The notes under the pieces are model-generated. The model saw nothing but the letters and a program-made list of their open reading frames with translations, searched no databases and was not told where the DNA came from. A DNA stretch of 55,234 bases. Origin: a virus. Below, piece after piece: positions 3,995 through 55,234 of this stretch (position 1 is the stretch's first letter; each line of letters starts with the position of its first letter). The translations under genes and the position numbers were made by a program. Location: positions 1-55,234 of the IMG/VR virus record IMGVR_UViG_3300040801_001718, one strand, 5' to 3'.

Positions 3995-6900
3995 TTAACT
4001 ACTTCTAAAATAAGTTAATCTTATATAATTATCACTTGCAACCATACTACACGTAGTAGATGACCCTTGCTGGTCACATACTAATTCCAGATAATCATTA
4101 GTACTCAATTGTATTAAAAATGGTCCAGCCCCTATACTTCCAGAATCCTCGGTTGTATTTCTTGTATAATTAGTGGATGTACCCCTACCTAAATAATCAG
4201 AACCATTTTTTCTTATTCTGCCTCTCACATTACTTCGCCCAGAGGCACCGTCATAATACAAATTGTATGAAACTTCATACCAACCATTCTGGTCTACGTA
4301 CACGCGTGAATTATTCGTAGAATTATCGTGAGTAAAATAATCATCATCTTTTAAATCTTCTTGATTCCAACCCACCGCAACTGGCGTAGATGAATTTACA
4401 TTAGTTGTGTTTGTACTATAGCACTGGATTGTTTTTGGCGCGCCGACAGTCACAGTTGTATAACTTACACCACTTGTAACAGTTACATTACCTTCAAAAT
4501 TTAGGTTAGAAACCGATGAAGCTTCTATTGATCCGTCTTGTGATATATTAATAGTAGCTCCAACACCTGGCTGTCCATTTTGACCTGCCGGACCCTGCTC
4601 TCCTCGTAAACCTTTTAAAGAAATTATTGTTAAAATAGTATCATCTGTTCCAGTAGTACTTCCAGAAGTATTTTCATATGCCTGTAAAGTTATATAATCA
4701 TTTTGTTGTAATGAAATAATAAATGAACCAGTTAATTCATGTTCTTCATTAGTATAAGTATTAACTTCTGATTCACTACCATCAAGTACAGTAGACCCGT
4801 TCTTCAATATCCGGCTGTAACTGTAATTAGAGCTACTTCTTATTACTTGGAATTTATAGGTAATGAAATATAACCCTGTTTCTTTTATATTTATACGCTC
4901 AGTATTACTATCATCATGTTCTAACACATCTGTATCGTTTTCAAAATCAGTGGTATCAAATGTTACATCTCCCCAACTACCTGGAAAAGTAAAATCAGTA
5001 GTTCTTCTTATCTGACATGCCGGTAAATCACCAGTTTCAATAGCATCTATCTGGTCAGCTAAAGCACCAGAAACGGAAGTTAACAAATTGTCTACTTCAG
5101 TTTCCGTGTAGTATCTATTATCATGATCTGTACTACCAGCTGCTGTATGATTTGTAATCCAAGCATCAACCTGAGTCTGAGTATAATATCTTGCATCACC
5201 CCTTGTATCATTGTGGTATTGTGAATGATCATCATCACCTAATCCTGTTAATTCTCCATGGTCAGTTGTTAAACCAGAAATTTCATCATCCACATACTTC
5301 TTATCAACTAATTCTGTAGTATTCGTAAATGTTGGATGAGAACTATAAGAAACTTTTCCAGTATAAGCACGGGTTCCATTTGACAAACTATACTGATTAT
5401 GATCATCATCATCAAGACCAGATAAATCACCATGGTCTGGACTAAATGATGACAACGCATCATCCACATATTTCTTATCAACAATATCAGTAGTAGACGT
5501 AAAAGTTTTATGTGAGTCATAACCAACTATACCTGTAAAAGGTCTAGTCCCAGACACAAGCACGTACTGAAAATGATCGTCATCTTGTAAACCCATTAAC
5601 AGTCCATGATCTAAATTACCACTAATAGTAACATTACCAGACAAAGTTGTCAACAAATAATCTACTTGCGTCTGCGTATAATATCGTGAATCTCCACGAA
5701 AATCATTGTGATATTGAATATGGTCATCATTAGCTAATCCACCAAGATCCCCGTGGTTTGATAAACCAGGCAATACACCATCACGGCCATAAGCAGTATA
5801 AACAATTGCTTGATCCAAATCAGTGAGATCAGTAGCCCCTCGTTTTACTATTAAATAGGCTCTTAAAACTGCGCCTTCTACAGAACCAGTAAGTAAATCA
5901 AAATTATCAGAGCTAATACCATCATAAGCTAACGATAGTGAATCATAACAATGCTGTCCCCACAATACAACTGTTACATCAGATACAGCAAAATAATAAA
6001 TTCTCTGAACAGTCCATTTTCCTGTAGGAACAGGTGTTAATACACCACCGACATCATAATAGTTAGGATCTATTTCACTTTTTTCAGTATAACGATAACT
6101 ATTAGAAATTTGATAATAGTATGAAGAAATTGAATTATCTGCTGTAGATTCATAAATATTAGGACTAGTTGGCTGATTTGTTCTATTTGCTCCTTTTCTA
6201 AATGCTTTACCAGCAGTTCTTCTTAAAGTCATAGGTGTAATAGTTGATACAGAATATCTATTTCCAGTTATGTTAACAGCGCCATAAGAATCAATAAAAT
6301 CCTCTAATGTTTTTGCTGCACAATACGCGGCTGTAGTATAATTAGCAATATTTGTAATTTCATCTGAACCAGAAATTGTTGACCAGTACTTACCCAAAAC
6401 AGCTGTGCTTCTTCTTTCTAACGCACTAAAATCATTATCTATAATTAATCCACCAACTCCTGATGAAACTCTATAAACTCCTATCCACTTATAAAAATCA
6501 CCATTCAAAGACCCACTAATACTTTGAGTTGGCCAAGACAATGTCTCAACCACAGGATCACCAGGATCTGACATATCCACATATATAGAAGTACCAGATA
6601 TAACATCCAACATATAAGAATTGATAGCATTTATAGATAAAGTACCGCCAGTTAAAATTCCAGTAGTATCAGCATATACTGCCAAATCCACATTGGCGTT
6701 GTCCTTTTTGAATCCACCAGCGGTTATTGTGTAATCACCAGCGTTCCAATCATTTGTAAGGGGCACTGATCCATCCTTATATAGCATTTGATTTGTTATA
6801 GACCCTGATATGGAATCCACTTCTGTTTCAGTGTAATAAAGATCATTTAAGGTTCCACTATCTAAATCTGTCTGTGAATAAGTAGTATTATCTACATAAG

Positions 6901-35191: not shown

Positions 35192-36280
35192 TTAAGCATT
35201 TGATGTAGCAGCTAAAGACCATTCTTCTACAGACAGATCTCCAAAATCAACAGCGTCGCCAGTGGAACTAATAGTAATATAATCAATAACATTAATTTTT
35301 GCATCATCAAGTGCGCCACCGCCAAATACGCCGCGATCATTCACATCATTTGAAGTAGATGCTAGTTGTGCACGAGCCGCTGTTAAATCTCCAAAATCCT
35401 GGGCATTGCCAGTAGAAGTTATGGTTATATATTCAATTATATTATACTCCGGACCAGTATCACCACCGCCGAACACACCTCTATTGTTTGTTCCGTTAGA
35501 AGTAGCAGCAAGCGCATATCTACCTACTGTTAAATCCCCGAAATCTGTGGCATTACCAGTAGTTGAAATGGTGACATAATCAATTACGTTAGAAATGGCA
35601 CCACCACCAAACACACCTCTATTGTTAGTACTATTTGAAGTACTAGCGATGGAATATCTAGTTCCGATCAAATCCCCAAAATCTGTGGCATTTCCGGTAG
35701 TAGAAATGGTGACATAATCAATTATGTTAGAAGCTGGTGCTACACTACCACCGCCAAATACACCTCTATTGTTAGTACTATTTGAAGTAGTCCCTAAACT
35801 ATGTCTTTTTATCGTCAAATCGCCAAAATCAGTAGAGTTTCCAGTAGTAGAAATAGTTATATATTCAATTGAATTAGTAATCGCACTTGTTTGACCACCA
35901 CCAAGTACACCTCTATCATTAGTACCATTCGAAGACGCACCAAGACCGAATCTTGCGTTTATTAAATCACCGAAATCTGTAGTGTTACTCGTAGTTGAAA
36001 TGGTTATATACGACATTACATTTAATTTAACACTACTCCATCCACCAATGAATACACCTCTATCTCTTCCAGAAAAATCTTCTTCTGGTGAAATACCTCC
36101 ATAACCCAAAACCTCGCCATCAGATTTTAAAGCCAGGACAGTTTTAGTTCCAGAAACCAGAGCTGTTACTTCATAATCTCCCACTGATTCCAATGAGTTA
36201 GATTCGATTGACCAGTCAGATTCTTTTAATATTAAAATTCTGGCGCTATCGTTTAAAGTCCCAGAAATTTTATAGGCCAT
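35192..36280 (-). CDS. Six-repeat propeller-like fibre protein (copy 1)
   Basis: A protein of 362 residues. Residues 1-75 form a shared N-terminal domain (YKISGTLNDSARILI, DWSIESN, VSGTKTV, GYGGISPEE). Six repeats of about 45-50 residues follow, each starting RGVFGGG (first copy RGVFIGG) and containing (I/V)(D/E)Y(I/V)TI(S/T)(S/T)TGNA.DFGDL and a (A/S)TSN.TN end. The repeat number and Gly-rich strand turns suggest a six-bladed beta-propeller. Three other genes here share the plan (41792, 43404, 54217). They are probably alternative receptor-binding or accessory fibre proteins. The gene overlaps the next by 11 bases at its start side. Confidence 0.85.
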   Translation of the reverse strand: MAYKISGTLNDSARILILKESDWSIESNSLESVGDYEVTALVSGTKTVLALKSDGEVLGYGGISPEEDFSGRDRGVFIGGWSSVKLNVMSYITISTTSNTTDFGDLINARFGLGASSNGTNDRGVLGGGQTSAITNSIEYITISTTGNSTDFGDLTIKRHSLGTTSNSTNNRGVFGGGSVAPASNIIDYVTISTTGNATDFGDLIGTRYSIASTSNSTNNRGVFGGGAISNVIDYVTISTTGNATDFGDLTVGRYALAATSNGTNNRGVFGGGDTGPEYNIIEYITITSTGNAQDFGDLTAARAQLASTSNDVNDRGVFGGGALDDAKINVIDYITISSTGDAVDFGDLSVEEWSLAATSNA

Positions 36281-41791: not shown

Positions 41792-42898
41792 TTACGCATC
41801 AGAACATGCAGCTGGGCTCTGCTTGCCCATTGTTAAATCGCCAAAATCACTAGCATTTCCAGTATTAGAAATGGTTATATAATCTATCAAATTAGTAATA
41901 GCGTCAGAATAACCGCCTCCAAATATACCGCGCTCATTGGTTCCATTCGAGGTACTACTGCTAATATACCTAGCTACTGTTAAGTCGCCAAAATCAGTAG
42001 CATTTCCAGTCGACGAGATTGTTATGTATTCTATAACATTAACTCTATCGCTTATATAACCCCCACCAAACACTCCTCGATTATTAGTATGGTTTGAAGT
42101 AGCAGTTACATAACTTATATCATTACTAAGGTCTCCGAAATCTGAGGCATTGCCAGTAGAAGTAATGGTTATATAGTCGATAACATTCATAAATGATCCA
42201 TTATCACCACCACCCCATACACCTCGATTGTTAGTAGCATTCGAAGTAGCTGACGCGTATCTACGAACAGCTGTCAGATCACCAAAATCTTGACTATTTC
42301 CTGTATTAGAAATTGTAATATATTCTATTATATTTGTCCAATTATTTCCATCATATCCACCAGCTCCAAACACACCACGTTCATTAGTTCCATTAGATGT
42401 AGCAGTAAGCCATGTCCACGTTTTAGTAAGATCACCAAAATCTGATGTATCTCCAGTTGTAGAAATAGTAATATATTCTATCACATTAGAACGAGATCCA
42501 TCATCACCACCACCAAATACTCCACGATCATTCGTACCGTTCGAAGTAGCACTTAAGCTTGTTTTTGCTACACTTAAATCACCGAAATCTGTGGCATCCC
42601 CAGTGGTTGAAATGGTTATGTAATCAATTATGTTACTACGAGCTACAGTTTCGTCAGCCCCACCGCCAAAAACACCTCTATCTCCTCCAGAAGAATACTC
42701 TTCTGGTGAAATACCTCCATAACCCAAAACTTCCCCATCAGATTTTAAAGCTATGACTGTTTTAGTTCCAGAAACTAGCGATTCTATTTCATAATCTCCG
42801 ACCGATTCTTCGGTATTTGATTCGATTGACCAGTCAGATTCTTTTAATATTAAAATTCTGGCGCTATCGTTTAAAGTCCCAGAAATTTTGTATGACAT
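41792..42898 (-). CDS. Six-repeat propeller-like fibre protein (copy 2)
   Basis: A protein of 368 residues. The N-terminal 75 residues are nearly identical to those of the genes at 43404 and 35192 (SYKISGTLNDSARILI, NTEESVGDYEIESL). Six repeats follow, each opening RG(V/I)(F/W)G(G/A)G, with variable residues after the Gly-rich turn, then YITIS.TG...DFGDL. The variable stretch of each repeat (for example GYDGNNWTN, DNGSFMN) differs strongly between paralogues, as expected for exposed loops on a propeller face. It is probably a fibre or host-recognition protein. GGAGG precedes the ATG. Confidence 0.85.
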   Translation of the reverse strand: MSYKISGTLNDSARILILKESDWSIESNTEESVGDYEIESLVSGTKTVIALKSDGEVLGYGGISPEEYSSGGDRGVFGGGADETVARSNIIDYITISTTGDATDFGDLSVAKTSLSATSNGTNDRGVFGGGDDGSRSNVIEYITISTTGDTSDFGDLTKTWTWLTATSNGTNERGVFGAGGYDGNNWTNIIEYITISNTGNSQDFGDLTAVRRYASATSNATNNRGVWGGGDNGSFMNVIDYITITSTGNASDFGDLSNDISYVTATSNHTNNRGVFGGGYISDRVNVIEYITISSTGNATDFGDLTVARYISSSTSNGTNERGIFGGGYSDAITNLIDYITISNTGNASDFGDLTMGKQSPAACSDA

Positions 42899-42907
42899 TT
42901 TTGTAAT

Positions 42908-43297
42908 TTATCCTCCATAAAGTTTATTTTCTAATTTTTCTATCATATCTTTAATTCTTCGTTTTTTATCTTGCAAAAATGTATCATTTGGATCTCTTTT
43001 TAATTCTTTTTCAACTAGAGCATTTTGACACTGTAACTGTTCTAAAAATCGCATATCCATAGTACGTTCTTGTTCTTTTTGTTTCATTTCCAATATTTTT
43101 TGCTGCATTTTAAACGTTTTGACAGTGTCCGCTTCCATTTCTTTTTTCATTTCTCTAGCGGAAGCCGCACTAAAATATCTATCTTCCATAAAAAACACTG
43201 CGCCAACAACAAAGGAAACGATGGTTAAAACAGATATTAACATTTTTGATAGATTAGTTAATTTTAATCCACCTTCCTGTTTATTTTTTATAAACAT
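42908..43297 (-). CDS. Membrane-anchored coiled-coil protein, inner-spanin-like
   Basis: A protein of 129 residues. One N-terminal membrane segment lies at about residues 19-37 (MLISVLTIVSFVVGAVFF), preceded by basic residues (KNKQEGGLK). A charged coiled coil follows (MKKEMEADTVKTFKMQQKI and on) with Cys near residue 90. This is the topology of an inner-membrane spanin (Rz-like): cytoplasmic tip, one helix, periplasmic coiled coil. The lipoprotein at 45068 could be the outer partner. The pair is not nested as in lambda, so the role is a plausible inference. Other single-anchor coiled-coil proteins would look similar. Confidence 0.6.
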   Translation of the reverse strand: MFIKNKQEGGLKLTNLSKMLISVLTIVSFVVGAVFFMEDRYFSAASAREMKKEMEADTVKTFKMQQKILEMKQKEQERTMDMRFLEQLQCQNALVEKELKRDPNDTFLQDKKRRIKDMIEKLENKLYGG

Positions 43298-43326
43298 GAT
43301 GACCTCTTTTCAAATATATAATTTTA

Positions 43327-43396
43327 TGGGAGAGTAGGATTCGAACCTACATTAACTGGGTCAGAGCCAGTCGTCCTACCATTGAACGATCCCCCA
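43327..43396 (-). tRNA. tRNA-Gln (CTG)
   Basis: A complete cloverleaf of 70 bases. The acceptor TGGGGGA pairs with TCTCCCA. D stem GTTC/GGAC. Anticodon stem ACTGG/CCAGT with loop CTCTGAC, so the anticodon is CTG (reads CAG). T arm GTAGG-TTCGAAT-CCTAC. U1-A72 is a known feature of tRNA-Gln. No CCA is encoded. It starts 7 bases after the stop of the fibre gene at 43404 and ends 28 bases before the start of the spanin-like gene. Confidence 0.9.
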
Positions 43397-43403
43397 TTAT
43401 ATG

Positions 43404-44504
43404 TTAAGCATCTGAACAAGCAGCTAATTCCGAGCATGCAGTAGTTATATCGCCAAAATCTGTAGCATTTCCAATAGATGAAATTGTAATGTAGTCAATA
43501 ACATTTAACCAGCTAATCTGCATTCCACCACCAAATAAGCCGCGTTCATTTGTACCGTTGGAACAAGCTGATAGATCTTTTCTAACTCCATTTAAATCTC
43601 CAAAATCAGTAGCATTTCCAGTAGAGTTTATAGTTATATAGTCCATAACATTGATATTAGATGGGGTACTACCACCACCAAACACTCCGCGCTCATTAGT
43701 CCCGTTTGAAGTAGCACTTACACCATAAACCTGGTTCCTTAAATCACCAAAATCATTGGCATTACTTTTGGATGAAATAGTTATATAATTAATATAATTG
43801 TAAAAATTTGACCCATTAGTCCCACCACCAAACACTCCACGATCATTGGTGCTATTAGAAGTGGCGGCTAAAAAACCCCTAGCATTTGCTGCCAAATCTC
43901 CAAAATCAACGGCGTTTCCAGTAGTTGGGATGGTGATGTAGTCCATGACATTTTTATAATTACTATCACGGCCACCTCCAAACACGCCTCTTTCATTTGT
44001 ACCATTAGAACAAGCAGCTAAACCATATCTACTTACCGTCAAATCACCAAAATCTGTAGCATCGCCAATAGTTGAAATAGTGATGTAATCAATTCTATTG
44101 GTAAGATTAACATCACCGCCACCAAATACTCCACGATCATTAGTACCATTCGAAGTGGCTGATAAACTACGCCTAGCTACTGTTAAATCTCCAAAATTTG
44201 TAGCATTACCAGTAGTTGAAATTGTCACGTATCCAATGACATTTGTAACTGCTGAGGCATCGACACCACCACCAAACACGCCTCTATCTCCTACAGGAAG
44301 ATATTCTTCAGGAGACACGTTTCCGTATCCAACAACTTCGCCGCCAGTGTTAATAGCAACTATGGTTTTAGTGCCGCTAACTAGGCTTTCAATTTCATAA
44401 TCTCCGACCGATTCTTCGGTATTTGATTCGATCGACCAGTCAGATTCTTTTAATATTAAAATTCTGGCGCTATCGTTTAAAGTCCCAGAAATTTTGTATG
44501 ACAT
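43404..44504 (-). CDS. Six-repeat propeller-like fibre protein (copy 3)
   Basis: A protein of 366 residues. Same plan as the other copies: an N-terminal domain (YKISGTLNDSARILI; here with IVAINTGGEVVGYGN replacing the KSDGEVLGYGG version), then six RG(V/L)FGGG repeats ending in ACSDA. It lies between tRNA-Gly(TCC) and tRNA-Gln(CTG). The first 130 bases of the gene are almost identical in DNA to those of the 41792 gene, including silent positions, so the pair arose by recent duplication or conversion. Likely an alternative receptor-binding or accessory fibre. Confidence 0.85.
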   Translation of the reverse strand: MSYKISGTLNDSARILILKESDWSIESNTEESVGDYEIESLVSGTKTIVAINTGGEVVGYGNVSPEEYLPVGDRGVFGGGVDASAVTNVIGYVTISTTGNATNFGDLTVARRSLSATSNGTNDRGVFGGGDVNLTNRIDYITISTIGDATDFGDLTVSRYGLAACSNGTNERGVFGGGRDSNYKNVMDYITIPTTGNAVDFGDLAANARGFLAATSNSTNDRGVFGGGTNGSNFYNYINYITISSKSNANDFGDLRNQVYGVSATSNGTNERGVFGGGSTPSNINVMDYITINSTGNATDFGDLNGVRKDLSACSNGTNERGLFGGGMQISWLNVIDYITISSIGNATDFGDITTACSELAACSDA

Positions 44505-44539
44505 TATTTTATTTATCTCCTTTTTGTATTTTTAATGGA

Positions 44540-44610
44540 GCGGACACGGAGAGTCGAACTCCGGTCAGCGGATTGGAAGTCCACCGCACTGGCCACTGTG
44601 CTATGTCCGC
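44540..44610 (-). tRNA. tRNA-Gly (TCC)
   Basis: A 71-base cloverleaf followed by discriminator T and an encoded CCA (44536-44538). Acceptor GCGGACA/TGTCCGC, D stem GCAC/GTGC, anticodon stem GTGGA/TCCGC with loop CTTCCAA, so the anticodon is TCC (reads GGA). T arm CGGAG-TTCGACT-CTCCG. The stop codon of a 55-residue gene abuts its first base. Confidence 0.93.
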
Positions 44611-44778
44611 TTATTTGTAATTATCTAATAGTTTTGAAATATCTAAAATTGGGTATTGAGCTAATACTTCTAAAGTTATTTTCAATATCTCATTAATTTG
44701 AGCAATATTAACTTCCTCTTTGCCGGATTCCTTCTTAGCTATTGCTTGTGCTAATTTAGCAAATTGTATGCTAGCCAT
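44611..44778 (-). CDS. Small helical protein (55 residues) abutting tRNA-Gly
   Basis: A 55-residue frame starting at ATG 44778 with AGGAG 7 bases upstream: MASIQFAKLAQAIAKKESG, then a helical hydrophobic remainder (LEVLAQYPILDISKLL). The start overlaps the stop of the gene before (TAATG). The stop TAA at 44613-44611 is directly followed by the first base of tRNA-Gly(TCC). No membrane segment is certain. Role unknown. Good ribosome site and coupling make it a real gene. Confidence 0.7.
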   Translation of the reverse strand: MASIQFAKLAQAIAKKESGKEEVNIAQINEILKITLEVLAQYPILDISKLLDNYK

Positions 44779-45056
44779 TATAGTACTCCTTTCACCCCTG
44801 CTGCAATACCTTTCATTAATAACTCTGTCAATTTTTCAATTGCTCTCTGGGCTAAAGCTAAATTTTTTACTTTATCACGTAATCTATCTAATTCTATTAA
44901 ATCACGAACATCTTGTATGTACGATCTACATAAAGACTCGGGAAGTCTGCCTTCTTCAAACTGATTAATATATCTTTCAATGTCATTACCTCGTTCTTGA
45001 AGATATTCATCGTCAGATTCTTTCAATTCTTTTATCAAATCATATATAGCTATCAT
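44778..45056 (-). CDS. Small helical hypothetical protein
   Basis: A protein of 92 residues beginning MIAIYDLIKELKESDDEYL. It is helical and charged, and ends in an amphipathic segment (LTELLMKGIAAGVKGVL). The gene is translationally coupled at its 3' end to the 55-residue gene. It sits in the lysis and envelope region. The Gly-containing hydrophobic C-terminus could associate with membranes, but the length is short for a classical holin. Not recognised. Confidence 0.65.
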   Translation of the reverse strand: MIAIYDLIKELKESDDEYLQERGNDIERYINQFEEGRLPESLCRSYIQDVRDLIELDRLRDKVKNLALAQRAIEKLTELLMKGIAAGVKGVL

Positions 45057-45067
45057 AATATCTACTC

Positions 45068-45487
45068 CTATTTATTCTTTAACAATTCAGTTTCTATGAC
45101 AATATCTATTGCAGTCAGTATATTTTTTAATTTTATATCAGCGTGCTCTTTAGTCCACTTTTCTTGAGAAATTCGTTCGTCAGCATGCCGTTTAAACATC
45201 TTTTGAATAATTTCAATTTGTTTAACGGTAGGGGAATTTGGATCACCTTTACTTTTCTCATATGCTAATATATATTTAAATCTTTGATTCATGGTCGCCA
45301 AACATCTAGTATCTATATTATTAGTTTGATACATAGCATAAATACCCTCAATATCAGGCTTTAGGTATGCTAAATTCTGATGTGTTTCTGGATCATATCT
45401 ACTAATCAAACTCGACGCACATCCTGATAATATAAATAAAACAGCGATAACTCCAATAACTCCAATAAAAAAATTTTTATACTTCAC
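45068..45487 (-). CDS. Lipoprotein (possible outer spanin)
   Basis: A protein of 139 residues from a GTG start at 45487 with GGGAGG 8 bases upstream. It has a typical lipoprotein signal peptide: Lys-rich start, hydrophobic core (FFIGVIGVIAVLFIL) and lipobox LSGC with Cys23. The mature part is helical with KQIEIIQKMFKRHADERIS. In a phage lysis region such a protein may be the outer-membrane spanin or a superinfection-exclusion lipoprotein; the former would pair with the coiled-coil protein at 42908. It starts 17 bases after the 3' end of tRNA-Gly(GCC) and ends in TAG. Confidence 0.7.
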   Translation of the reverse strand: MKYKNFFIGVIGVIAVLFILSGCASSLISRYDPETHQNLAYLKPDIEGIYAMYQTNNIDTRCLATMNQRFKYILAYEKSKGDPNSPTVKQIEIIQKMFKRHADERISQEKWTKEHADIKLKNILTAIDIVIETELLKNK

Positions 45488-45504
45488 TGTATTGCCTCCC
45501 GTGA

Positions 45505-45575
45505 GCGGGCAATGGGAATCGAACCCATACTGTTAACTTGGCAAGCTAACGTGCTACCACTATCACTATGCCCGC
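45505..45575 (-). tRNA. tRNA-Gly (GCC), overlapping a protein gene
   Basis: A 71-base cloverleaf: acceptor GCGGGCA/TGCCCGC, a three-pair D stem with GTGGTA loop, anticodon stem TTAGC/GTTAA with loop TTGCCAA (anticodon GCC, reads GGC), T arm ATGGG-TTCGATT-CCCAT. No CCA is encoded (TCAC follows). The preceding protein gene (45546-46097) reads into it for 30 bases and stops at a TAG formed by bases 28-30 of the tRNA. Confidence 0.92.
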
Positions 45576-46097
45576 TTTTGTATTTTTAACTATGTCAATT
45601 ATAAATCCAAGTGGTTTTGGTGTTGTCCACATAACTCTATTTGAAAAATCTGATTCAAATTCTCTACCAGCAAATTTACCAGTTGTTTCCTTTTTATAAG
45701 CTGTGACAACCAAAACGTATTTAGTGTCATATGGTATAGGAAAATTTTTCTTAGTAAGCTCGATAGATTTGATATCAAATGATTCTATATTGGCTCTAAA
45801 AAGATAGTTATTTTTTAAAATATCTTGTTTATTAATTGGAATAAAAACACCTTCACCGCCTGGAACTTCCTCGTAAGATCTTGTATCGTAAGTACAATCA
45901 GTATCTACAACAGAACAATAATAATCAAGTGTCCACACATAAACATAAGTCCCACAAACTGCTGTAGGTGAGCAAACATCTGTGCTGGTCCACTGAAGTG
46001 ATTTTGCTTCTATTATATTTGAAAAAATTCCAACTAAAAGTAAGGATGCTAAAACCAGCCTTCTAAATTTTTTCAGGAAAAAAGGCTTTTTAACCAT
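45546..46097 (-). CDS. Secreted Fn3-like protein ending inside tRNA-Gly
   Basis: A protein of 183 residues. A signal peptide is likely (KKFRRLVLASLLLVGIFSNIIEA, cleavage after Ala near residue 31 or so). The mature part has paired Cys (VCSPTAVC, then YCSVVDTDC) and a fibronectin-III-like strand pattern (YVLVVTAYKKE, NRVMWTTP). The last nine residues (AGIVIVVAR) are encoded by the first 27 bases of the tRNA gene, and the TAG stop lies in its anticodon stem. Envelope localisation is likely. The function is unknown; a superinfection-exclusion or lysis role is possible. Confidence 0.7.
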   Translation of the reverse strand: MVKKPFFLKKFRRLVLASLLLVGIFSNIIEAKSLQWTSTDVCSPTAVCGTYVYVWTLDYYCSVVDTDCTYDTRSYEEVPGGEGVFIPINKQDILKNNYLFRANIESFDIKSIELTKKNFPIPYDTKYVLVVTAYKKETTGKFAGREFESDFSNRVMWTTPKPLGFIIDIVKNTKAGIVIVVAR

Positions 46098-46101
46098 GCT
46101 A

Positions 46102-46389
46102 TTATCCTGAGATATATACCGTAAATACCGGAAGGACCGGTCTCTCGAAAGGGAAATTGACTGTCAGTGCCTCCCATCCATTATCTATAATAACATCGGC
46201 ATTATGGCTTCCTACGGTAATAATGGCTGGATCAAGTAAATAATCTAAATATACAGTATCATTTTCAACTACAAATTCGGGATTACCATCTACAAAAACA
46301 CCTATTTGAGTACCATCAATAGATACCGTAATAGATTCAATTGGATTTTCTGTTGTATGTGGAACTGAGCTAGTTTTTAGATGTTTCAT
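46102..46389 (-). CDS. Small Ig-like hypothetical protein
   Basis: A protein of 95 residues starting MKHLKTSSVPHTTENPI, with AAGGAG before the ATG. A single beta-sandwich is likely (ITVSIDGTQIGVFVDG, VYLDYLLDPAI, FTVYISG). No Cys and no signal peptide. It lies 4 bases before the secreted protein gene and 10 bases after a basic unknown gene. A phage surface or decoration domain would fit. Not recognised. Confidence 0.6.
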   Translation of the reverse strand: MKHLKTSSVPHTTENPIESITVSIDGTQIGVFVDGNPEFVVENDTVYLDYLLDPAIITVGSHNADVIIDNGWEALTVNFPFERPVLPVFTVYISG

Positions 46390-46399
46390 AAATTTCTCC

Positions 46400-46978
46400 T
46401 TACATCCATTGTTTTTTCTTTTTATGGTTCTTCCAACATTTTCTATTATCTACATCACCGCGAGGTCTATCATCCCACATGTTAGGTAACATATGAGCCA
46501 GTCGTTTACCTCTAATATATTCTTTGTGCGCATAACTCCAACGTCTTTCTTGTGTAGTTTTAGGACGCTTGTAAAAAGATCCAAAACTCCACGATTTTTT
46601 ACCTGTGAATGGAACAGGTGTATACCTAAATATAACATGTTTGTAACGCTCGTTGTATCTTCTAATATAACTATTTGTGTTACATGTCGATCTGTTATAT
46701 TCACGTATATCATTCAATACTTCATTTTTAGAGAACATGCTGCCAAATTGATCTCGGATAATATATTTTGTCGGACGTTCATCTTTTTTTCCTAAACGTC
46801 TATATATTAAATCATCCAACCAACTATTATAGCGTTCTTTAAGTGTGTTTATTACGTATTTTTCAACAAAATGGTAGTTAGTATTCTCTATAAACTCTTG
46901 ATAATTTTTATAATGATATACTTCACCATCAGTACCTATAAGTTTAATTTCGGGTTGGTATTGCGGAATATCATACAT
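46400..46978 (-). CDS. Basic aromatic hypothetical protein
   Basis: A protein of 192 residues starting MYDIPQYQPEIKLIGTDGE, with GAGGAGG upstream. The first 60 residues are a small alpha/beta domain. The remainder is very rich in Arg, Lys, Tyr and Trp (for example YKRPKTTQERRWSYAHKEY, then HKKKKQWM at the end). The composition suggests nucleic-acid contact. The small gene at 48274 has a related basic and aromatic composition. No known family is recognised. Confidence 0.65.
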   Translation of the reverse strand: MYDIPQYQPEIKLIGTDGEVYHYKNYQEFIENTNYHFVEKYVINTLKERYNSWLDDLIYRRLGKKDERPTKYIIRDQFGSMFSKNEVLNDIREYNRSTCNTNSYIRRYNERYKHVIFRYTPVPFTGKKSWSFGSFYKRPKTTQERRWSYAHKEYIRGKRLAHMLPNMWDDRPRGDVDNRKCWKNHKKKKQWM

Positions 46979-47006
46979 AACGACACCTCCTCAGTTAAAT
47001 ATAAAT

Positions 47007-47048
47007 CTAACTGAATGGCATCGTTGCATTTCCTTCAAATGGGAACAT
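47007..47048 (-). CDS. Possible 13-residue mini-ORF
   Basis: ATG at 47048 is preceded by GGAGG at 7 bases, a strong site. The frame MFPFEGNATMPFS ends in TAG at 47009-47007, 28 bases before the start of the next gene. If the amber suppressor acts, only three more residues would be added. It may be a leader peptide that tunes the following gene, or simply a reused ribosome site. Low certainty. Confidence 0.35.
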   Translation of the reverse strand: MFPFEGNATMPFS

Positions 47049-47058
47049 AGTTATCCTC

Positions 47059-47640
47059 CTAATTTTTAATAAATTCTACTCTGTTTAACCATCCTCTGGC
47101 GTATTTTTCTTGAATAGGACTTTCGGTCATATAAGTGATATAGTGCATCCCTTGTAAAATATTTAGAACTTTGTACAAATAACTAACATTATCAGTAGCT
47201 AAATACATAGACAAAGCCCTATATGTATTTTGTCCAAATTGACCATCTTCGACAATATCTTCATATATTTGTTGATTTCGGTTTAGAATGTTTAAACCTC
47301 TTTGTAGAAATTTGATTGCTCGACTAGCTCCCATATTTACGCTGGTATCAAATAATTCGTTTGCTAAATCCTGTTCTGATAATTCATCGCCCCAAAATAA
47401 ATTCCAAAAAGTTGATTTATAAAATAATTTAACCATGTCTTCTAATTCAGAATTACTTTCTAAATTGTTTGGAAAATCAGAACTACTTTTTGCTTCATCT
47501 ATAATGGGCCATCCTTCCCAATCAGGATGATATCGTCTAGAAATACCTTTATAAGTTTCTTTACCCGAATCATCGGGATCATTTGAATAACCACCTTCAT
47601 GACCTAACGTAATATTATACGCCGTATTAAAATTCGCCAT
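47059..47640 (-). CDS. Endolysin, GH108-type N-acetylmuramidase
   Basis: I place the start at ATG 47640 (MANFNTAYNITLGHEGGYS), with GGAGA and good spacing; the open frame extends upstream without a site. The 193-residue protein has the hallmark HEGGYSNDPDDSG with catalytic Glu15, then TYKGISRRYHPDW, and GASRAIKFLQRGLNIL with the C-terminal putative peptidoglycan-binding fold (VEDGQFGQNT.RAL). This is the glycoside hydrolase 108 plus PG-binding-3 pattern. It cleaves the glycan chain at lysis. No signal peptide is seen, so export would need a holin. It ends in TAG. The permuted NlpC/P60-like gene lies directly upstream. Confidence 0.9.
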   Translation of the reverse strand: MANFNTAYNITLGHEGGYSNDPDDSGKETYKGISRRYHPDWEGWPIIDEAKSSSDFPNNLESNSELEDMVKLFYKSTFWNLFWGDELSEQDLANELFDTSVNMGASRAIKFLQRGLNILNRNQQIYEDIVEDGQFGQNTYRALSMYLATDNVSYLYKVLNILQGMHYITYMTESPIQEKYARGWLNRVEFIKN

Positions 47641-47650
47641 ACTAACTCTC

Positions 47651-48220
47651 CTATGATAATCGTTCTGCCAAGATAGTCCATCGATCTGGATATTTCTCCC
47701 AATCATCTTCTATATCGTCTGGATCACAGGACATCCATGGCACATTATTAAATTCATAACCACATGCCGTATTATAAATCCAAGCTACAAAACTTGAACA
47801 CACTTGATTATATATATTCTCGTCTTTATTACTAAACCAGTTTGTTTTAAAGATATGATCTAAAAATTGTAAAAGTATTCGATGTACCCCATAAAATTTT
47901 CCTAATAATTGTGGTGCAGTTCGAAGCATAACATCTTGTTGGTGTTGGCTTAAATCATTTTTTCTTGCTATTCGCCAATACTTTTTGTTTTTGAATAATT
48001 TATCTAATTTGATACTCCTTAACCGCCAATGGGCTTCCCAAGCTTCTATATTATCTTTTACAATTAAACAATGACCCCAATGTACAGGATCATCTTGAAA
48101 ATGTCTCATAAACCATACTATTAAATTGTTATCACAGGATAATATAATATCTCCAGTTTTCAAAGTTGGTAAAACGTTTTTCTCTAAATGCTGACGTGAC
48201 AGTTTTAGATTGATATCCAT
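47651..48220 (-). CDS. Permuted NlpC/P60 (YiiX-like) papain-fold protein
   Basis: A protein of 189 residues. The order is GDIILSCDN, then VHWGHCLIV with candidate catalytic His50, then a C-terminal QVCSSFVAW with candidate nucleophile Cys141. This is the circularly permuted papain-like layout (His before Cys) of YiiX/YebB and related enzymes. Members act on peptidoglycan peptides or lipids or amides. Beside the endolysin it may be a second cell-wall hydrolase. It starts 18 bases after the suppressor-type tRNA and ends in TAG, four bases before the next ribosome site. No signal peptide. Confidence 0.75.
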   Translation of the reverse strand: MDINLKLSRQHLEKNVLPTLKTGDIILSCDNNLIVWFMRHFQDDPVHWGHCLIVKDNIEAWEAHWRLRSIKLDKLFKNKKYWRIARKNDLSQHQQDVMLRTAPQLLGKFYGVHRILLQFLDHIFKTNWFSNKDENIYNQVCSSFVAWIYNTACGYEFNNVPWMSCDPDDIEDDWEKYPDRWTILAERLS

Positions 48221-48238
48221 TATGTTTTACCTCTGTGA

Positions 48239-48309
48239 TCGTGTGGGGGGAGTTGAACCCCCCTAAAACGGTTTTAGAATCCGCCGCCTAGCCGCTCGGC
48301 CACACACGA
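48239..48309 (-). tRNA. Amber-suppressor-type tRNA, anticodon CTA
   Basis: A 71-base cloverleaf: acceptor TCGTGTG/CACACGA, fully paired; D arm GCC-(9)-GGC with GG in the loop; anticodon stem GCGGA/ACCGT (one G-U, one A-A mismatch next to the loop); loop TTCTAAA, so the anticodon is CTA (reads UAG); T arm GGGGG-TTCAACT-CCCCC. The variable loop is 5 bases, so it is not of Ser/Leu/Tyr type. U1-A72 occurs also in the tRNA-Gln here and is a Gln-type feature. No CCA is encoded. A 9-base loop with TCT would be the alternative, but it would need a poorer stem. Confidence 0.8.
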
Positions 48310-48618: not shown

Positions 48619-48717
48619 AATAGTGTCCTCCTATTTAATTTAATTACAGATAAACTGTGATGAGGATATTACCATTATGGGGGTTTAAGTTTTGCAACCT
48701 ACCCCATATCTAATCGT

Positions 48718-49293
48718 TTAATCTAGGTCATATTTTTGTCCTTTACTATAGCTACGCCAAATATCTAAATCTAGTTCTGCTACTGATTTACCAGATTTTT
48801 TGACGTAATCTAAAAACAAATTTTCAATTTCTTTATATTGTTTATTACTTCCTGGTGTTGACTTAGGAACAACATGCCCGTTGTCCCTTAAAAAACTTAA
48901 TATATGAACATCCAGACCAGCGCAATTCGAAATAGGTCTGCTATGTATCAAAAAACACCTTGAAGTTTTTCTACCAATACCTTTAATTTGCTCTAAATCA
49001 TTTATACTACAAGTTTTTAAATTTAAACCACTGTTTGCTATTTCCCACATGGATTGTGCTTTTAGATTATAGCATCCTATTCCATAGGATTTTAACATCT
49101 GTGGTAATAGCTTTGGATCACTTCTACGTATTTTATCAAAAGGTGAAACACCTTCTAAATTATTTAACAACTTATCTAACTGCCTTGCCATGACTTTTGC
49201 AGTTTTACCAGCTGCACATATCCAAAAAAGTAATACTTCTTCTAATTTATAGTTGGTTAAATTGTAGTTTGTTATATCATATGGATCTATCAT
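48718..49293 (-). CDS. HhH-GPD DNA glycosylase-like protein
   Basis: A protein of 191 residues. The helix-hairpin-helix motif IKGIGRKTSRCFLI has Lys109 at the position of the catalytic Lys of endonuclease III, and GLDVHI has Asp128 at the place of the catalytic Asp, 19 residues later as in that family. The C-terminal iron-sulphur Cys cluster is absent. Endonuclease-III-type enzymes remove damaged or modified bases. In a phage this could repair DNA or act on a modified base. A copy of the promoter-like element lies 21 bases upstream. The fold call is good; the substrate is unknown. Confidence 0.75.
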   Translation of the reverse strand: MIDPYDITNYNLTNYKLEEVLLFWICAAGKTAKVMARQLDKLLNNLEGVSPFDKIRRSDPKLLPQMLKSYGIGCYNLKAQSMWEIANSGLNLKTCSINDLEQIKGIGRKTSRCFLIHSRPISNCAGLDVHILSFLRDNGHVVPKSTPGSNKQYKEIENLFLDYVKKSGKSVAELDLDIWRSYSKGQKYDLD

Positions 49294-54216: not shown

Positions 54217-55234
54217 TTAAGCATCTGAAGTAGCTGCTATATCATATTTATTTGCTCTAAGATCACCAAAATCAGTAGCATTGCCAGTAGATGAAATGGT
54301 TATATAATCGATAATATTACAAGCCGCTGTAGTATAACCACCGCCGAAAACGCCACGATTATCCGTACCGTTAGATGTAGCAGCCAAAAAACGTCTGGCA
54401 GCTGTTAAATCTCCGAAATCAGTAGCATTACCAGTCGAAGAGATAGTAACATAAGTAATAACATTAGTAGTAGTACCCCTATCTCCACCGCCAAACACAC
54501 CACGATTACTAGTACCATTAGAAGATGCCGCTAAAACATATGTGGCCGATAATAAATCACCAAAATCAGTAGTATTACCGGTTGAAGAAATGGTTATATA
54601 TTCAATCGTATTAAATTTTGATGCGGAACTTGAAACTCCACCACCAAAAATACCTCTATTATTTGTTGCATTTGATGTTGCTGATGTACCTCTGATTTCC
54701 TCCACCAAATCACCAAAATCAGAAGCATTACCGGTAGATGAAATTGTGATATATTCTATAATGTTAGAACATAATGAAATGTCAGTAGTACCTCCCCCAA
54801 ACACACCTCTATTACTTGTTCCATTAGATGAAGCTGCTAATTCTTGTCTTGATGATGCAAGATCACCAAAATCACTTGCATTACCTGTAGTAGATACAGT
54901 CACATAATCAATAATATTATATCTATTAGCGCTCATTGATCCGCCACCAAACACTCCACGATCATTAGTGCCATTAGAAGTAGCGGCTAATTTTTCTCTA
55001 TATAATGAGAGATTACCAAAATCACCGGCATTACCAGTTGATGAAATAGCTATGTATTCTATTTCCCAATTATCACCACCAAATAAACCTCTGTCCCCAG
55101 CAGTATAAGATGGTACTGTTTCAAAATACCAAATGTCACCAGTTGTTGTGCCGGTTTCATTCTTTGAATCAATTCTCCAGTAATAAGTACCGTCTTTTTC
55201 TAATGTACCGGGATCATAATTTGTTCCTTCTTGA
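54217..55234 (-). CDS. Six-repeat propeller-like fibre protein (copy 4), partial at the right edge
   Basis: The frame is open from the right edge (first whole codon ends at 55233) to the stop at 54217: 338 residues plus missing N-terminus. The visible start is an Fn3-like end (DGTYYWRIDSKNETGTTTG, then IWYFETVP), unlike the N-terminal domain of the other three copies. Six repeats follow (first one shorter, RGLFGGDNWEIEYIAIS), all with the RG(V/I)FGGG and DFG(D/N)L pattern, ending AATSDA. A GTG near 54954 is internal and not the start. It is 30 bases upstream of the metacaspase gene. Likely a large fibre whose last domain is the propeller. Confidence 0.85.
   Translation of the reverse strand, partial: QEGTNYDPGTLEKDGTYYWRIDSKNETGTTTGDIWYFETVPSYTAGDRGLFGGDNWEIEYIAISSTGNAGDFGNLSLYREKLAATSNGTNDRGVFGGGSMSANRYNIIDYVTVSTTGNASDFGDLASSRQELAASSNGTSNRGVFGGGTTDISLCSNIIEYITISSTGNASDFGDLVEEIRGTSATSNATNNRGIFGGGVSSSASKFNTIEYITISSTGNTTDFGDLLSATYVLAASSNGTSNRGVFGGGDRGTTTNVITYVTISSTGNATDFGDLTAARRFLAATSNGTDNRGVFGGGYTTAACNIIDYITISSTGNATDFGDLRANKYDIAATSDA

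Follow-up and report, generated by a model that had tools for sequence, protein, structure and literature searches.

A candidate phage leader that would switch on a new protein family when UAG is decoded

We analyzed a 55,234-nucleotide stretch of phage DNA (IMG/VR virus record IMGVR_UViG_3300040801_001718, positions 1 to 55,234; hereafter “the window”) that encodes a tRNA with the anticodon CUA, which would make it an amber suppressor. This tRNA belongs to a dedicated module that also includes a short leader open reading frame (ORF) interrupted by in-frame TAG codons, a predicted hairpin that hides a ribosome-binding site (RBS), a gene of an apparently new protein family called HIAY, and, in some relatives, a gene for a PTH2-like protein. 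On comparative and computational evidence, we consider it probable that the leader is a translational switch that turns on HIAY expression only when a suppressor tRNA decodes UAG. Relatives are designated below by labels for their loci or contigs (L140, L141, and so on). The parts of the module in the window are as follows.

48675..48731, minus strand: leader micro-ORF, MT*IKRLDMG*VAKLKPP-TAA (asterisks denote in-frame TAG), with homologues in 14 other contigs
48723-48725 and 48699-48701, minus strand: the in-frame TAG codons of the leader, at codons 3 and 11
48678-48683 and 48675-48677, minus strand: the Pro-Pro codons of the leader and its final TAA
48613..48682, minus strand: hairpin, with a 5′ arm (48682-48651) that starts within the Pro-Pro codons and a 3′ arm (48642-48613) that carries the Shine-Dalgarno sequence and the HIAY start codon
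48274..48618, minus strand: HIAY-family gene (114 amino acids, motif EYRHxHIAYSELRG), whose last 36 nucleotides lie in the CUA tRNA and whose TAA comes from the anticodon loop
48237..48309, minus strand: tRNA with a CUA anticodon, identified with ARAGORN

A leader with an in-frame TAG is found ahead of 15 of the 16 HIAY genes, namely those of the window, L140, L141, L164, L167, L168, L169 (partial), L181-L187, and L211. The remaining gene, in L212, encodes a distant homologue (30% identity) and is without the leader. Besides the window peptide, the leaders read ML*DKRLDMG*VAKLRPP (L211), ML*KRFNGL*IIRGPP (L140), MS*VKPRKFDGG*INIRPP (L141), ML*EISRSPP (L164), MT*IHKMEYG*VARGPP (L168), MT*VKQIDYG*GARSPPN... 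(L167), MNNDKVKC*VLKPP (L181), MKMK*IQLLRGPPI... (L182), MT*GFDKQRAPPY... (L183), MW*VKTSPP*GNSRSPP (L184), MI*IHKPP (L185), MT*VRIRPP (L186), MT*NHVFKPP (L187), and, with its 5′ end cut, ...KP*VKKPP (L169). The TAG occupies codon 3 in most leaders and codon 9 in L181. The first stop is always TAG and never TAA or TGA, and the frame beyond it is open through Pro-Pro in every leader, several of which have a second TAG and no TAA or TGA. The Pro-Pro end shows synonymous variation (CCN CCN) and the final stop varies between TAA and TGA, while the TAG is invariant. Judged by sequence, such variation around a constant TAG is what marks a frame that is translated and for which the TAG matters. The leader of L211, which was obtained only after the leader pattern had been defined, keeps both TAG codons of the window leader among seven synonymous and three nonsynonymous codon changes (random P = 0.0007).

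In the sequence scanned, the pattern with its Shine-Dalgarno sequence was also confined to this gene family. A strict motif (Shine-Dalgarno sequence, ATG, up to nine codons, TAG, and then Pro-Pro followed by TAA or TGA) was scanned against 4.38 Mb of strand-bases and gave 10 matches, all 10 of which precede HIAY genes. Control scans with an internal TAA or TGA gave three and zero matches, respectively, none ahead of a HIAY gene, and dropping the Shine-Dalgarno requirement from the motif scan yielded a few scattered chance matches. A CUA tRNA lies within the same locus in 14 of the 15 leader cases, typically farther downstream within that row of genes. We found no precedent in the open-access full texts searched either for a natural amber-containing leader or for phage tRNA punctuation, an arrangement considered below.

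The sequence from the Pro-Pro codons onward is predicted to pair with the region that holds the HIAY Shine-Dalgarno sequence and start in 13 of the 14 complete leaders, with hairpin z-scores between -2.4 and -5.3. The hairpin sequences differ among phages, and the two arms match within each phage. Duplex energies averaged -15.7 kcal/mol for true partner arms versus -9.7 kcal/mol when arms were swapped between phages, and none of 200,000 permutations was as low. We then modeled a ribosome that covers about 11 nucleotides ahead of its A-site codon. The mean predicted cost of opening the HIAY RBS was 10.6 kcal/mol with the ribosome at the first TAG, 12.9 kcal/mol at the last TAG, and 2.6 kcal/mol at the Pro-Pro-stop. 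The corresponding values for the window are 12.5, 18.8, and 3.3 kcal/mol.

We infer UAG decoding in vivo, pausing at the Pro-Pro-stop, and the direction of regulation, which together would give the following sequence of events. A ribosome that starts on the leader would meet UAG at codon 3 and, in the window, again at codon 11. If UAG is not decoded, translation would terminate there, the hairpin would stay shut, and HIAY would not be translated. If a charged suppressor tRNA is present, the ribosome would read through to the Pro-Pro-stop and terminate slowly. At that site it would cover the 5′ arm of the hairpin and thereby free the Shine-Dalgarno sequence and start codon, such that HIAY, together with coupled PTH2 where present, could be made. 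Termination after polyproline stretches is inefficient (PMC6412442), and thus the open state would be prolonged. A second amber in series, which the window leader has, would steepen the switch.

Several observations weigh against this interpretation. The Shine-Dalgarno sequence of the window leader (AAAGGAC) is weak, and so is the L185 hairpin (z-score of +0.7). Among the 73 genes of the window, the HIAY RBS is not the most closed but ranks fifth, and no stop immediately follows the Pro-Pro codons in L167, L182, and L183. Most members of the family come from metagenomic contigs, and related contigs among the 16 HIAY-bearing ones compared are not independent of one another. Furthermore, TAG is the ordinary stop of 12 of the 73 window genes, and a filtered search of the other window genes revealed no convincing or conserved case of an in-frame TAG. 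Given these last two findings, any decoding of amber codons can only be partial or timed.

A second minigene with an RBS hairpin is present upstream of another window gene (46400-46978), at positions 46970-47060 on the minus strand, and also in L140 (~5740-5787) and L164 (~5245-5290). It reads ATG CCA TTC AGT TAG (MPFS*) in the window and ATG CCT TTT AAG TGA (MPFK) in the two relatives, and hence TAG is not kept as its stop. Each copy lies within a long hairpin that is predicted to hide the RBS of this downstream gene family. In the window, the opening cost would be 17.8 kcal/mol, more than for any other of the 73 genes.

The HIAY family takes its name from the motif (Y/F)RHxHIAY(S/C)ELRG. It has no significant match in Pfam, PHROGs, NCBIfam, the PDB, or viral fold libraries, its structure model has no match in the PDB, and no homologues were found in a collection of named phages. 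By these searches, HIAY appears to be a new protein family. One of its members, L211, is contig JAEORV010000165.1, which is filed as part of a Lokiarchaeota metagenome-assembled genome. The contig resembles a relative of the window phage (HIAY gene, CUA tRNA, and C92 peptidase gene) and was probably binned incorrectly or else hints at the host.

The CUA tRNA of the window scores 48.6 bits against the tRNA family of Rfam (RF00005). In the window and its relatives the CUA anticodon sits on a tRNA fold, and the acceptor ends differ between phages. The possibility that it is a true pyrrolysine tRNA was dropped; the label Pyl given by ARAGORN reflects the anticodon only. The HIAY gene runs into the CUA tRNA by 36 nucleotides in the window and by 38 in both L164 and L211, and in all three its stop is a UAA made of anticodon-loop bases. 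In L140, L141, and L168, it is instead the stop of a PTH2-like gene that abuts the CUA tRNA, and the HIAY homologue lies before PTH2. The same order is seen in L167, with a gap of 8 nucleotides between the PTH2-like gene and the tRNA. A PTH2 gene was searched for in the window, L164, and L211 and was found in none of them, and thus the overlap occurs only where an intervening PTH2 gene is absent. Support in the HIAY tree is too weak to distinguish loss of PTH2 from gain, or a single event from repeated ones, and shared descent is likely for L164 and L211.

PTH2-like genes adjoin the module in many leader-bearing members. Representatives are located at these positions.

L140, 6898-7188: PTH2-like gene
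L141, 1229-1528: PTH2-like gene
L167/L168, 4001-4294: PTH2-like gene
L175, 4001 on: PTH2-like gene

The modeled protein matches PDB entries 2zv3, 3erj, 1xty, 1wn2, and 1q7s, all of the PTH2 fold, and it has no match in Pfam. We also observed PTH2-like genes, often beside tRNAs, in records for Lak, Erwinia, Serratia, Stenotrophomonas, Acinetobacter ME3, and mycobacteriophage genomes. A CUA tRNA is close to the PTH2-like gene in two of these, Acinetobacter phage ME3 and mycobacteriophage Cane17. No amber leader was found at these distant loci (Lak, Erwinia, Serratia, Stenotrophomonas, Acinetobacter ME3, and Cane17). The PTH2-like gene of L175/L181, near position 4001 of L175, contains an in-frame TAG (QNH*GSEWKNN), which points to amber decoding in this 211-kb phage contig.

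PTH2 could remove peptidyl-tRNAs produced by readthrough, or it might act on RF1 or on the suppressor tRNA. A more speculative step concerns the window, L164, and L211, where ribosomes on the HIAY gene would traverse the CUA tRNA in its 5′ half. Translation and tRNA maturation may then compete, which could provide negative feedback. We hold it evenly balanced whether the whole assembly is a natural sensor of genetic-code state, in which the amber leader gauges UAG decoding, the hairpin switches on HIAY and PTH2, and, where PTH2 is absent, the HIAY gene read into the tRNA could brake its own inducer.

ARAGORN identified exactly four tRNAs in the window, the CUA tRNA among them, and each is encoded on the minus strand within a single co-directional gene row. 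The other tRNAs and the genes that flank them are listed below.

43325..43397, minus strand: tRNA-Gln(CTG), identified with ARAGORN
44536..44610, minus strand: tRNA-Gly(TCC), identified with ARAGORN
45503..45575, minus strand: tRNA-Gly(GCC), identified with ARAGORN
42908..43297, minus strand: 129-amino-acid ORF that starts 27 nucleotides past tRNA-Gln; its homologue in L140 is likewise 3′ of tRNA-Gln
43404..44504, minus strand: gene for a 366-amino-acid repeat protein that starts 31 nucleotides past tRNA-Gly(TCC) and ends 6 nucleotides ahead of tRNA-Gln
44611..44778, minus strand: 55-amino-acid ORF whose TAA immediately adjoins tRNA-Gly(TCC)
45068..45487, minus strand: 139-amino-acid ORF with a GTG start, 15 nucleotides past tRNA-Gly(GCC)
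45546..46097, minus strand: 183-amino-acid ORF whose TAG end lies 30 nucleotides within tRNA-Gly(GCC)
47651..48220, minus strand: C92 (YiiX-like) peptidase gene that starts 16 nucleotides past the CUA tRNA and is also 3′ of the CUA tRNA in L211

A preliminary description of this DNA had reported that all four tRNAs punctuate the ends of protein genes, and the ARAGORN and ORF coordinates bear this out. They agree as well with its placement of tRNA-Gly(TCC) directly after a TAA (the ORF ends at 44611 and the tRNA begins at 44610) and with overlaps of 30 and 36 bases at the other two joints (ORF ends at 45546 and 48274). Its range of 17 to 31 bases for the distance to the next protein start holds at the upper end and is too high at the lower end, as the measured distances are 27, 31, 15, and 16 nucleotides.

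To place these joints in context, we compared related phages. The window phage, whose large terminase is of the phrog_2 type, has few close kin. A terminase scan gave 80 loci, four of which (L140, L141, L142, and L160/L167) retain parts of the same tRNA neighborhood, and scans with neighboring proteins added L164, L168, and later L211. Single-sequence searches with several window proteins returned few relatives. For all 21 run-leading tRNAs in this clade, an ORF of at least 50 amino acids ends between -18 and +38 relative to the tRNA. For 10 of the 21, the first base of the tRNA immediately follows a stop codon (TAA or TGA), versus 3 of 50 tRNAs from other phages (Fisher P = 1.3e-4, a value that is optimistic because related contigs are not independent). 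This difference indicates that, on the sequences compared, exact abutment is a trait of the clade.

Plain compaction could account for these joints, and we judge this explanation nearly as probable as its opposite. Zero-length joints and overlaps would then be neutral outcomes of deletion, and ORFs that read into a tRNA would simply end at chance stop codons within it. The median gap between protein genes in the window is 12.5 nucleotides, with overlaps at 19 of 72 junctions, and such spacing leaves room for a Shine-Dalgarno site, so the short gaps 3′ of the tRNAs are ordinary. Compaction alone also predicts gaps of zero before the tRNAs and of 15 to 31 nucleotides after them, because only the following gene requires an RBS, whereas a tRNA requires no upstream signal. 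The read-in ORFs indeed end at a TAG or TAA borne by the tRNA. At the joint with tRNA-Gly(GCC), the 183-amino-acid ORF reads AAA then GCG in frame, one base away from TAA then GCG, and thus a mutated abutting stop is a simple, if unproven, origin for the 30-nucleotide overlap. Relatives of this gene were sought by homology search and none were found. Two findings are harder to accommodate. Compaction leaves the amber leader and its hairpin unexplained, and the overlap between the HIAY gene and the CUA tRNA ends at the same point in each of the three phages that have it, though L164 and L211 are likely to share descent.

The preliminary description had instead likened the arrangement to mitochondrial tRNA punctuation, in which RNase P and 3′ processing would split a single transcript and each overlap would yield either the tRNA or the mRNA. 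This proposal is tentative but has a real chance of being correct. It draws on the abutment or overlap of all four window tRNAs with genes and on the prevalence of exact joints in the clade. Moreover, an mRNA cut at a zero-length gap would still terminate in an intact UAA codon. Promoter-like -10/-35 pairs between 42.8 and 49.4 kb numbered 30, compared to 34.4 in shuffled sequences, in a consensus scan from which phage promoters may differ, and the same region has four predicted terminators versus 2.5 in shuffles, which is no clear excess. Because promoter-like matches do not exceed shuffles, separate tRNA promoters are not indicated. The single co-directional row, the lack of a promoter excess or a clear terminator excess, and the conserved tight joints make co-transcription of the tRNAs with release by RNase P plausible. 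The proposed choice between a tRNA and a complete mRNA is logically valid for the overlaps, and for the CUA tRNA it would apply in three phages with the same UAA end.

The arguments against punctuation are that compaction predicts the same gaps and that most tRNAs of the other phages compared are separated from genes. When the gene-tRNA junctions were compared among relatives, as the preliminary description had suggested, the tight stop/tRNA joints were kept, but the HIAY gene was parted from the CUA tRNA by PTH2 in L140, L141, L168, and L167. The separation in relatives that the preliminary description had named as a refutation was therefore observed in part. The window sequence shares with mitochondria the direct contact or overlap of tRNAs with the ends of genes on a single strand. 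Unlike in mitochondria, the window genes have their own RBSs and complete stop codons. The four tRNAs apparently lack their own promoters and are embedded in a compact row, trimmed to the point that a tRNA often starts directly behind a stop codon. The punctuation noted earlier is real, and it consists mostly of dense packing, together with a gene that extends into the CUA tRNA.

Turning back to the leader itself, its TAG could be the ordinary stop of a two-codon minigene that acts through dipeptidyl-tRNA drop-off or translational coupling. PTH2 would be the matching hydrolase, and the portion after the TAG would serve as a hairpin arm only. The minigene of lambda bar is AUG-AUA-UAA (PMC8012679), and the L185 leader, with its start of ATG ATA TAG, is one base from it. 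A two-codon mini-ORF also controls txe in cis (PMC8708949). The phage leader shares with lambda bar the geometry of a start, one codon, and a stop, which follows from the position of TAG at codon 3 in most leaders, as well as a functional link to peptidyl-tRNA hydrolase through the adjoining PTH2 genes. It differs from lambda bar in that its stop is UAG only and its frame runs on to a conserved Pro-Pro. Together with the synonymous changes 3′ of the TAG between the window and L211 and the placement of TAG at codon 9 in L181, these differences make the minigene explanation unlikely. Genome-wide reassignment of TAG (code 15, as in Lak or crAss-like phages), in which the leader TAG would be a normal sense codon, is suggested by the CUA tRNA and by the in-frame TAG of the L181 PTH2-like gene, but it is quite improbable given the window genes that end in TAG, the lack of conserved internal TAG codons in the filtered search of these genes, and the concentration of TAG near codon 3 of a micro-ORF that precedes a single gene family.

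The proposed switch has counterparts among known leaders. For ermC-type and tnaC leaders, a halting ribosome decides whether the downstream RBS is hidden by RNA structure. In the toiL-topAI system, the halt site of the ribosome on a sensory upstream ORF makes the same decision for the next RBS (PMC12121999). The phage leader resembles all three in that a short upstream ORF would use the position of a halted ribosome to govern a structure that hides an RBS. It has two hallmarks of an upstream-ORF attenuator: a conserved short ORF that could be translated and a predicted structure over the RBS whose modeled opening depends on ribosome position. Unlike them, it carries a conserved internal TAG and would sense decoding of UAG by a suppressor tRNA, rather than an antibiotic, tryptophan, or an uncharged elongator tRNA.

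A closer parallel is a synthetic switch for unnatural amino acids, in which a TAG in a leader peptide makes downstream expression dependent on a CUA tRNA (PMC6412442, Figure 8). That switch is engineered and transcriptional (it uses a rut site), whereas the phage leader is natural, is present in 15 contigs, and apparently acts on translation through an RBS hairpin. Lak and crAss-like recoding phages likewise encode a CUA tRNA, and PTH2-like genes are found in Lak phages too. They differ in that TAG is still mostly a stop in the window and in that the Lak PTH2 genes we checked are without an amber leader.

Directly downstream of the CUA tRNA, the C92 peptidase gene is accompanied by a GH108 endolysin-like gene (47059-47706). 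The repeat protein gene listed above is one of several paralogs in the window (35192-36280, 41792-42898, 43404-44504, and 54217-54954), which share the sequence GVFGGG...YITISTTGNATDFGDL and belong to phrog_19111 where scanned.

Many phages carry CUA tRNAs, and how they time UAG decoding while host genes end in UAG is an open problem. If our interpretation is correct, the conserved leader would be a built-in gauge of UAG decoding. It would also give HIAY and the phage PTH2 a testable role, whether in handling stop-codon readthrough or in promoting it, and it would provide a natural counterpart to amber-controlled synthetic switches.

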